This document shows, one piece after another, positions 24,839-36,482 of a stretch of 64,000 nucleotides of DNA. The DNA is from Ianthella basta (lineage: Eukaryota; Porifera; Demospongiae; Verongiida; Ianthellidae). Position numbers and translations under genes: made by a program. The DNA is taken from the NCBI GenBank assembly GCA_964019415.1, contig OZ025874.1, forward strand, positions 297,501 to 361,500, given 5' to 3'. The notes beneath the pieces are model-generated. The model was not told the origin of the DNA. It saw nothing but the letters and a program-made list of their open reading frames with translations, and ran no database searches. How positions within the stretch are numbered: the stretch's first letter is position 1; every line of letters starts with the position of its first letter.

Positions 24839-24839
24839 A
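24832..24839. promoter_or_regulatory. CRE-like TGACGTCA overlapping the start codon (gene 2)
   Basis: Full palindromic ATF/CREB-type octamer whose last A is the A of the ATG at 24839. The same arrangement is present in gene 3. Function is inferred from the consensus and conservation. Confidence 0.5.
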
Positions 24840-33800: not shown

Positions 33801-36482
33801 ATTCATATTGTGAGCTGTATCAACAGTGCAAAGAAGAAGGTTCTGTTGCTGACATTGGAGAATTTCATGCCATGGTCACCTATTTCCATGCTCTCGGTAT
33901 TCTTGTTCACCTTTGTGGGGCTGATGTAGGGCACACTGAAGACAGTGACTGCCTTGTCTTCACCAATCCTTCATACCTCTTTGAGAACATTTCCAAATTG
34001 TATCAAGTGCAGTTTGAAAAGTGTGGAACACAGGCCATGATTACTCTCAAACATGAAGGAAAATTGACAAAGGAAGCACTTCGAGACCTTAAAGTTGATG
34101 AGGGTCAGCTTGATTACGACCGTTTCATGAACCTCCTGGTTCAACTCTTCATTGGAGCAGAAGTCAAGTCAGATGAAGGGGTAAGGACCCTCTTTGTCCC
34201 CTCGGTATTGACCAACCCAGAAGATGCTGTGGCCATTGGTGCCAGACCACTGGAACAATTCCTGTGCCTTGCCATCACATTCAAGGGCACATCTTACATT
34301 CCTTGTGGGGTATTCACAGGAGTGGCTGCCCGCTTGCAGTCAGCACCAGAGTGGAAGATATGCACCCGTTCTAGCTCTCGTATGTGTATGGAATTTGCTG
34401 TAGGGACGGAGGCCACTGTAACTCTGTGTGATCATGCAACCCATGTCAGTATGAAGGTGGACCGCTGCGATGGAATCAGACTTGAGGAATACCAAGAGTA
34501 CTGTTCCACAGTTGTAAAGGCCACTGCAGACTCGTACTGCTTCCTCTTCCACAGCAAGGCTGCCAAGGACCCTCATGATGGGACCTGCAGTGAGTGCAGG
34601 GATAGCCCCTACCTGATCCTCGGGCAAACATGCCAGATGTGCCCCACTCAGTCAAGTGCTACTCCGAAAACACCACACTTTGCTGAACTGAAGATGAAGA
34701 AGGGTGTTCCTTGGTCTGTTCGCTGCCATGACACAGAGAAACCAAAAGTGTTGAGTGAATTTGAGCAGGTCACATTCCAGGACATTTCCCATTACGTGAG
34801 TGATTGGTTTGCTATACACTGTAGCCACAGGTTTCCCTTACGCTTGTGAACTGCTTGCTCTCTCCTCCTGCAGGCTGTAGTAATGAAGCAGCACAGTTGT
34901 CCCACTCAGTGTGGGGAAGCATTGAAGACAGTCTCTCAACATTACCTCCTCCCTCAGGCAGGTTAGATCATATGCTGCAATACTCTGGTTTGTCCCGAGC
35001 AGATGCCATGCATGCAGGCACAATCCAATTGCACAAACACTCTTATGTACAATCCATTGTGGTAGAAGTTTGAAGTAACTTTTGTTCTTATGGACTGCAC
35101 CGTTTGTCCCATGGAATGACTGTGGCAATTATGCCATTTCCTGTACCAAAGTTAGTACTGAACTATACCAACGTCCCTAGTGCTATGTTGTAGGTAGGTT
35201 GCGCGTGCATGTACACTGGTGTAGCCCTGTGGTGAGTTTTGGGAAATTGAACAGCGCGCAGCGGCTATGTGTGAAATGTGGGCAGGGCTGGTCCTATCAG
35301 GGTATGAGATGGAAGGTGTGTGTATCACGACTATTACCTTTTCTGTGCAGAAGAAGTTCTTGACTACTTTCGGGACAGGTTCATTGAGGAAATGGATGCA
35401 GAGGCTGTTGTAACGAGGCTTCTACGTGAGGACATTATTGACAAAGGTGACAAGAAGAAAATTGAAAGGGATATCAATCCAACACGGCAAAATGAGATTC
35501 TGCATTTCTGCTTGACAGAGAAGTGCACCAGGGAAGCCTTAGTGACTGTGTGTGACCTAATAATTGCTGTGAAAGGCAACAAAAAGTTAAAGGCTTTAGG
35601 CGAGGCCATGAAAGCCAGACTGGAAGGTAAGTATGTTGGGTGTGAGCGTGTGTGTGTGTGTGTGTGTGTGTGTGTGTGTGTGTGTGTGTGTGTGTGTGTG
35701 TGTGTGTGTGTGTGTGTGTGTGTGTGTGTGTGTGTGTGTGTGTGTGTGTGTGTGTGTGTGTGTGTGTGTGACGACAGAGTCAATGTGTTTGTGTGCTTTG
35801 TGTATTTACTGGTGCAAGCAGTTCTGCCATGTGAAGAAAAGTGGTGACACTACGTAAGTAACTCTCTCGTTGCAGAAAAGCACGTTGAACCAAGCCAACC
35901 TAAGCCATCAGTTGAGCCAAGCTTGCCTCAGTCGTCAATGAAGCAGTTGCAAGGTGATAAACCGTGATATGTGTTGTGTTTGTAGCGAATGCACTCTTTT
36001 GGTGACTCCATTGAATGTAAACTGGCTCACTTGTACCATCCTCCTCTCCCTCAGGTGCCCGAGCTCTCCTAGACATCTCGTCCCCTCCAGACATGAGAGA
36101 TGTGGATGAGCTGGTTGTGACACCAGTGGCCTCCAACTGGCAGAGGCTGGCCCACAGGTTGGGTGTGGAGGGCTGTGTCATTGAAGTCGCCTCCAAGAAC
36201 CACCCCAATGACTACGAGGGGACATGTCAGGAAATGCTTGAACGCTGGCTGAGAGGAGACCGGCACACTGGGGAGGAGGAGCGGACATGGTCCACCCTCC
36301 TGACAGCACTGGGTAGAGCAGGCTTTGTGGAGCTGGAGAGGAGCCTGCGGAGAGTGCACTTCCACAAAGCAACCTCCCCGTGGATTTCATTTGCAAAACA
36401 GCATACTCTTTTATTGCTGCTGATAGCAGCCATTTTATTGTCTACTCTTTTCCAGTGTCTCCACTTTATATTACCTAGCTGA
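24839..36482 (+). CDS. Giant ANK-ROC-COR-DD-repeat-GTPase-CARD-DD-TM protein, gene 2
   Basis: Eight exons: 24839-28475, 28706-28990, 29325-30902, 32340-34795, 34874-34961, 35351-35626, 35876-35953, 36055-36482 (TGA). Every junction agrees in phase (all phase 1 except exon 4/5, phase 0); total 8826 nt, 2941 residues. Order: ankyrins and two 34-residue repeats; ROC from about residue 481 (GNAEGGKST, DFAGQHEYHG, GSFLDK); COR to about 1055; a death domain embedded in exon 1 (about 1073-1165); death-fold exon 2 (1213-1308); about 57 EPSQPQSSA units (exon 3); second GTPase exon 4 (GPPQVGKT about 1864, LDSGGQ about 2114, GTHLDK about 2212) with winged-helix/COR-like tail; exon 5; CARD exon 6 (EEVLDYFRDRFIEEMDAEAV); linker; death domain and hydrophobic C-terminal tail (HTLLLLLIAAILLSTLF), probably a tail anchor. 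The alternative is two genes, but exon 4 has no convincing start codon and joins in frame. Confidence 0.75.
28055..28355 (+). other. Death-domain cassette inserted into gene 2 exon 1
   Basis: A death domain (NWQRLALRLGVEGCVSEVVL ... TALGRAGFVALERSLRRVHF) closely related to that of exon 8 (36055-36390) lies inside exon 1, whereas genes 1 and 3 have none here. It is flanked by two copies of RINWTQ. The junction GATTAGGTATCCAGGCTCTC resembles the AG/GT acceptor boundary before exon 8, so intron sequence appears to have become coding. This points to a DNA-level copy, not a retrocopy. Confidence 0.75.
29338..30896 (+). repeat. 27-bp coding minisatellite, gene 2 exon 3, about 57 units
   Basis: Near-perfect units (CCGAGCCAGCCTCAGTCGTC phase) encoding EPSQPQSSA, occupying almost the whole exon. 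Variation is mostly silent (TCG/TCA/TCT Ser; CCG/CCA Pro). Two other frames and the opposite strand are also open across the array. Confidence 0.95.
30903..32339 (+). other. Intron 3 of gene 2
   Basis: A 1.4-kb intron joining the repeat exon to the second GTPase exon. It contains a 37-bp near-perfect palindrome (31769-31805) and, around 31390-31905, AT-rich sequence bounded by GTGGTGGGC and GCCCACC, possibly a decayed hAT-type MITE (weak). No exon is recognisable. Confidence 0.6.
31769..31805. repeat. 37-bp palindrome (17-bp arms, 3-nt loop)
   Basis: The left arm starts ATACCGGTTAGTTACAT, and the right arm is its exact reverse complement after ACC. A strong cruciform/hairpin candidate inside the putative MITE. 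Confidence 0.85.
35646..35770 (+). repeat. (TG)n after the CARD exon donor
   Basis: TG repeat of about 125 bp starting about 20 nt after the exon 6 donor GTAAGT. Confidence 0.95.

Follow-up and report, generated by a model that had tools for sequence, protein, structure and literature searches.

The window analysed here is a stretch of 64,000 bases from the sponge Ianthella basta (contig OZ025874.1, positions 297,501 to 361,500; C7:297501-361500 in the genome searched, which comprises 209 Mb in 96 contigs). It harbours four related units, designated P (12.9–21.7 kb), G (24.5–38.1 kb), M (41.1–42.1 kb) and C (53.3–64.0 kb); the gene in unit G, located on the + strand, is the subject of this report. 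To judge from its sequence, this one gene likely encodes a fusion of an ankyrin repeat (ANK)-ROC-COR-death protein with a CARD-associated GTPase protein, the corresponding parts being termed A half and B half. The exons and the intron joining the two halves are as follows.

24839..28475, + strand: exon 1, ankyrin repeats, putative ROC G domain (GNAEGGKST, DFAGQ, GSFLDK), COR-like region and first death domain
about 28058-28357, + strand: first death domain, within exon 1
28706..28990, + strand: exon 2 (EX2), divergent death domain, phase 1-1
29325..30902, + strand: exon 3, array of 57 PSQPQSSAE nonapeptides, phase 1-1
30903..32339, + strand: intron joining A half to B half, with a dispersed repeat inside at about 31373-31903
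32340..34795, + strand: exon 4, second putative GTPase (B; GPPQVGKTT, LDSGGQ, GTHLDK) with a COR-like C-terminal part and a variable insert between G1 and G3
34874..34961, + strand: exon 5, small, completes the B module, phase 0 to 1
35351..35626, + strand: exon 6, CARD-like domain, phase 1-1
35876..35953, + strand: exon 7, short nonapeptide-repeat piece, phase 1-1, with a relic in the upstream paralogue
36055..36482, + strand: exon 8, C-terminal death domain, hydrophobic tail (about 36405-36473) and stop

Joined, the eight exons yield 8826 nt encoding 2941 residues with a single stop at the end and exon end phases of 1, 1, 1, 0, 1, 1 and 1, which reproduces exactly the frame described in an earlier note on this DNA. 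The frame is open but not unique, since 816 of 51,840 combinations of GT/GC donors and AG acceptors near the last four introns stay open (51,840 being the product of the site options listed). Some of the chosen splice sites are backed by paralogues: the first donor is identical in three window copies, and the small exon 5 recurs downstream of B at locus L039 and at a second chimeric locus on contig C16, backing its sites. Module boundaries are in phase 1, the B exon and exon 5 together forming one 1-1 unit. An AATAAA is located at 36744, behind exon 8.

Of the domains given in the earlier note, the Pfam check confirmed the ankyrin repeats (Ank_2, 2e-55) and the C-terminal death domain (28.8 vs a cut-off of 22.6 bits). 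The first death domain was borderline (22.7 bits when searched in isolation, 17.4 within the complete exon), while Roc of the A half (E 5.5e-5, 23.8 vs 27 bits) and CARD in exon 6 (E 0.045, 14.2 vs 23.9 bits) fell below their cut-offs; neither COR in the A half (up to E 10) nor the middle death fold in the window copy of EX2 had a Pfam match. About 400 residues following the A-half Roc, in the position expected for COR, align across four members, and a PDB search with the A profile retrieved nothing up to E 1. Pfam Death matched one of five EX2 members (E 0.11), and the profile of these five members found in the PDB the death domain of CRADD (E 0.004 and 0.0059) and FADD (E 0.11–0.27), the latter outranked by the unrelated ClpP (0.096). 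Among six relatives of the CARD-like exon, two matched CARD weakly (best E 0.023) and one matched Dark_CARD (E 0.0054); in a profile search of the PDB, the CARDs of CARD9 and NLRP1 appeared at E 0.5–2, below the unrelated myosin light chain (0.051). Tandem Repeats Finder delimited the array of exon 3 to 29342-30887 (period 27, 57.3 copies), in agreement with the roughly 57 nonapeptides counted before, and related arrays are present in paralogues P (with a frameshift) and C.

The C-terminal hydrophobic tail noted earlier was recovered as the 19-residue window of highest Kyte-Doolittle value in the protein (2.44, within the last 25 residues). This suggests a C-terminal membrane anchor as a hydropathy prediction, hydropathy alone not being specific since a window in the ankyrin repeats reaches 2.11. 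For the tail (36363-36482), no DNA relative was found in the genome: a search with tail and 3' region returned, apart from the query itself, only two short matches (about 45 bases each), neither of them in the tail. The two paralogues lack a tail and terminate in KEE and KVE. Between the gene's own death domains, at 28058-28357 and 36055-36362, dS is 0.13; a recent duplication or conversion between them is suggested, because dS of the C-terminal one to the death domains of the neighbours is higher (0.20 and 0.28).

The second GTPase had been announced as a different one. A second GTPase module indeed seems to be present, but rather than of a different kind it is probably a divergent ROC-COR, which is the best label for the sequence features at hand. 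Roc was matched in all three full B members available for comparison, each time as a partial domain and below the cut-off (E 0.004, 0.0093 and 0.21), and COR-A in one of the three (L010, E 9.3e-4, 19.5 bits vs a cut-off of 35.3). GPPQVGKT, LDSGGQ and GTHLD are invariant in these three members and may be called Roc-like. On the other side, L010 fits the general GTPase family MMR_HSR1 somewhat better than Roc (E 3.8e-4, 21.0 bits vs a cut-off of 21.9), profile-profile comparison of A and B gave a probability of 4 %, and a PDB search with the B exon alone found no ROCO structure. In the PDB search with the B profile, GTP-binding proteins appeared only at E of about 1–2; the top matches, pentapeptide-repeat and DotG proteins, align to the variable insert and were discarded as evidence of fold. 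The stretch between G1 and G3 is variable among members: in the C16 B exon (L033:148-2628) it is a pentapeptide-repeat array (Pfam 71.3 bits, above cut-off), in the window copy about two copies of a 78-bp repeat instead. No relative of B was detected in bacterial and archaeal genomes (37 pattern matches, none confirmed). Long open frames at three B loci (2425, 2436 and 2678 aa) may reflect stretches of N, and a masked run is present in one of them, L023.

Units P and C share the order ANK-ROC-COR, EX2, nonapeptides, death domain and stop, with neither B in between nor a hydrophobic tail. In the A-gene paralogue of P (13255-20254), the nonapeptide exon is frameshifted, and relics of the B module follow the stop.

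20483..21009, + strand: relics of B tail, small exon, CARD-like exon and nonapeptide exon behind the death-domain stop of P, 84–90 % DNA identity to G

In detail, 20483-20729 is 88 % identical to 34730-34976, 20800-20897 is 84 % identical to 35392-35491, and 20971-21009 is 90 % identical to 35859-35897. The paralogue in C (53670-60880), modelled at 2233 residues, is interrupted once, by an in-frame TGA at codon 504 within its ankyrin array, where an intron may be hidden, and M (41113-42056) is a degenerate fragment of a fourth A-type unit.

As to how the A and B halves are joined, the evidence favours one gene over two. Donor and acceptor of the joining intron are canonical and in phase, and read-through of the nonapeptide exon gives SYGKYV and then a stop. 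All 21 B loci compared have a phase-1 AG acceptor and an intact P-loop. A Met stands just before this P-loop in 20 of the 21, the window copy being the sole exception; the window B exon furthermore has an in-frame stop just upstream and therefore needs an upstream coding exon. At the 20 other loci, B is preceded by a repeated segment of about 60–90 residues (11 loci), by ANK-ROC-COR (C16) or by a weak death-domain match (L026), the remaining ones having no upstream match; the repeated segment is absent in the window. That these segments represent CARDs was an idea by eye, and two examples gave no CARD match. On the sense strand of the joining intron, no AATAAA or ATTAAA was found. Pairwise ratios of nonsynonymous to synonymous substitutions (dN/dS, NG86) amount to 0.33 and 0.42 for ROC-COR versus two window paralogues, 0.40 and 0.30 for EX2, 0.35 for B versus L010 and 0.52–0.68 for three pairs of death domains. 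Among the three near-complete window copies, G has the only uninterrupted frame, as assembled.

Of the 1437 bases of the joining intron, 519–531 (36–37 %) belong to a dispersed repeat, flanked by an inverted pair (31034-31070/32089-32125). This repeat of about 520 bases (31373-31903) recurs in dozens of places in the genome in pieces of more than 100 bases at 75–87 % identity. Its share of the intron is counted in favour of one gene, as is the C16 locus, where a joining of this kind shows up as a clean insertion, in phase and with the frame open through EX2.

Several points count against a fused gene, or at least against an old fusion. The paralogue P ends its A gene in a death-domain stop of its own, so that separate A and B genes are probably the older state; an ancestral A gene next to a B gene appears likely because the B relics follow that stop, and G would have lost the death exon between nonapeptides and B. 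Nine of the 20 other B loci, C16 included, also are without the repeated upstream segments. The lack of AATAAA carries little weight, as this signal is sparse in the window (0.2 per kb) and a scan of 1.6 kb behind the stop of paralogue C gave none. The dN/dS of B compares the window copy with one locus and thus averages two lineages, a short first exon of B may reside inside the joining intron, and the death exon at C16 joins in frame with none of the three acceptors tried. The earlier claim of a single modular gene, combining two GTPase modules with several death folds, thus holds as the best reading, with the qualification that its halves were probably separate neighbours before.

The foremost alternative is two neighbouring genes, A ending in or after the nonapeptide exon and B starting from its own short first exon within 30.9–32.3 kb. 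The complete A gene order of P with B relics behind its stop speaks for it, and the Met before the P-loop in 20 of 21 loci makes B-only starts conceivable elsewhere. The window copy, however, lacks this Met and has an in-frame stop just upstream of its B exon, the terminal death exon that A has in P and C does not precede B here, and the joining splice sites are canonical and match in phase, all of which renders two genes unlikely. Still less probable are alternative 3' ends, by which one promoter would serve a short ANK-ROC-COR-death protein and a spliced-on long double-GTPase form: the order in P, a death-domain stop exon followed by B relics, would fit alternative last exons in the ancestor, and the modules are in phase 1, but no death-domain match lies between the nonapeptide exon and B in the gene itself. 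That the locus is a decaying member of the tandem array or an assembly artefact, as the damaged neighbours (frameshift in P, in-frame stop at codon 504 in C, fragment M) might intimate, is highly improbable, given a frame free of stops over 2941 codons, dN/dS of 0.30–0.42 for the ROC-COR, EX2 and B pairs (higher for the death-domain pairs, 0.52–0.68) and B relics in the next unit, which argue against misassembly.

Across the genome, both exon families are large, the following counts being lower bounds because only the best candidates were scored. At least 146 ROC-COR-type exons occur in the genome (72 scored matches with the A-type query and 74 loci with the C16-type query, whose 75 matches include one locus in two pieces); the query was the ROC-COR part only, and ankyrin repeats are thus not implied for each. 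B exons number at least 58 (55 scored loci with the window query plus three with the C16 query), and EX2 relatives at least 150 scored. Two of 73 ROC-COR exons (the 72 A-type ones plus C16) are followed by a same-strand B exon at a distance of no more than 20 kb, namely in the window and at C16:7.13 Mb; between the 74 C16-type and the 55 B loci, C16 is the sole pair less than 10 kb apart, and none of the three extra B loci is near a listed ROC-COR exon (compared by eye). A death domain lies within 260 bases of the ROC-COR match at 36 of the 73 loci. EX2 lies within 3 kb at 22, 19 of which lack a fused death domain but have another one distally. A fused death domain together with EX2 is seen at the gene of interest only, in a table of hand-picked rows (84 of 150 for the death domain, 24 of 150 for EX2, mostly top matches or on ROC-COR contigs) in which absences are no proof. 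Downstream of B, eight of the 55 loci were examined: five have a homologue of the window CARD-like exon (four at 45–54 % identity, one at 28 %), two a death domain and one EX2, and two have no match at the threshold used.

The second chimera, at C16:7.13 Mb, consists of an ANK-ROC-COR exon (47.5 % identical to that of the window), B (48 %), the small exon, linker exons and EX2. Its frame is open from the first in-frame ATG through EX2 (1738 codons, summed; phases 1, 0, 1, 1, 1 and 1); the terminal death exon, for which acceptors 13949, 14003 and 14047 were tried and none was in frame, was left out of this model. A stretch of 683 bases, beginning 24 bases behind the ROC-COR exon, matches eight other loci at 87–95 %. 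At five of these eight, the sequence beyond the B module matches as well (92–94 %) and adjoins directly or one base off, marking the five as empty sites (one fetched and aligned, four by coordinates); for the other three, the second flank is absent from the listed matches.

Contig C16, 6018546/6018547, 6162077/6162079 and 6206096/6206098: empty sites
Contig C2, 8297170/8297168 and 8241635/8241633: empty sites

The insert at C16 thus measures about 5.0 kb, contains B and is located in an intron of the ANK-ROC-COR gene. Part of it is a repeat found at many other places in the genome, and no clear target-site duplication was seen against the one empty site aligned. A tree built from the initial ~119 residues of 21 B loci does not place the copies of the window and of C16 as sisters, some deep nodes having low support; a common origin of the two chimeras thereby finds no support, and the two joining events look independent. 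The uniqueness that had been assumed for the two-GTPase chimera is therefore limited: C16 joins the same two families, apparently in a separate event.

A likely route would start from a complete A gene and a B gene lying side by side in one ancestral tandem unit. Loss of A's last death-domain exon together with any 5' exons of B would then let the phase-1 nonapeptide exon splice into the phase-1 B exon. In the resulting protein, the ankyrin repeats may act as binding site for a ligand or partner, two ROCO-type GTP switches may set dimerisation or oligomerisation, the long flexible spacer could keep the two signalling heads apart, three death folds and the CARD could nucleate a caspase- or adaptor-recruiting assembly, and the C-terminal hydrophobic segment could tether the protein to a membrane. 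The predicted three death folds, CARD-like exon and repeat spacer would fit such an assembly-nucleating scaffold. Taken further, the two chimeras may reflect a live exon-shuffling system in which ANK-ROC-COR death genes took up a GTPase cassette (B plus small exon, phase 1-1) on two or more occasions, the products being double-ROCO proteins whose two independent GTP switches feed several death-fold outputs; we consider this proposal evenly balanced between right and wrong.

If transcribed, the gene would yield one chain with two probable ROCO-type GTPases, a CARD-like and three death-fold domains, and the question would arise whether two GTP switches could be wired to different death-fold outputs. 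C16 allows a base-by-base comparison of the inserted cassette with related loci without the insert, and this before-and-after view makes domain gain by intracellular immune receptors directly testable.

Like DAPK1 and the ROCO family, the gene has ankyrin repeats followed by a putative ROC, a COR-like region and a death domain; it differs by the second putative GTPase, more death folds, a CARD-like exon, the long repeat spacer and the hydrophobic tail. NLR and inflammasome-type receptors offer an analogy in combining sensor repeats, a nucleotide switch and a death-fold output, but unlike the GTPase modules here they employ a STAND ATPase. Among Pfam matches of the exons scanned (from 24839 on), there was no protein kinase domain, NACHT or LRR. 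A review of ROCO proteins distinguishes three groups, each with a central RocCOR tandem, of which the DAPK1 group carries a kinase (PMC6337361), a domain not matched in the scanned exons of this gene. Combinations of Roc/COR with death or TIR domains are described from sea anemones (PMC5094078) and Aplysia (PMC9334734), and very diverse architectures with death-like domains from the sponge Amphimedon (PMC8195603). As architectures are highly shuffled in sponges and cnidarians (PMC8195603, PMC5094078), a new combination is less surprising there than in vertebrates. Papers on sponge immunity cover NLR or transcript repertoires (PMC12909245, PMC8242945). Among the top-listed papers surveyed, none names a double-GTPase ROCO death protein or a double-GTPase ANK-ROC-COR/CARD form, subscription papers and some sponge gene catalogues lying outside this scope. 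Brown-algal ROCO genes likewise shuffle modular exons, and the family has been proposed to act as immune receptors; there, repeat (LRR) exons are shuffled, whereas here whole GTPase and death-fold modules are joined (PMC11378527). Most shuffled modules of class 1-1 are described as lying outside the cell and consisting chiefly of beta structure, intracellular muscle proteins being exceptions (PMC8001218). In contrast, the class 1-1 modules of the present gene are predicted helical death folds, presumably intracellular, and this departure from the usual pattern is worth following.

Two further observations concern the surroundings of the gene. A G-rich 20-bp minisatellite (51.5 copies) at 21864-22892 is located between tandem units. 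Minus-strand frames at 39368-40355 resemble kelch repeats as in a protein of the host-cell-factor type; this region may be partly duplicated, since 37328-39751 recurs with 91 % identity at 61634-64000.

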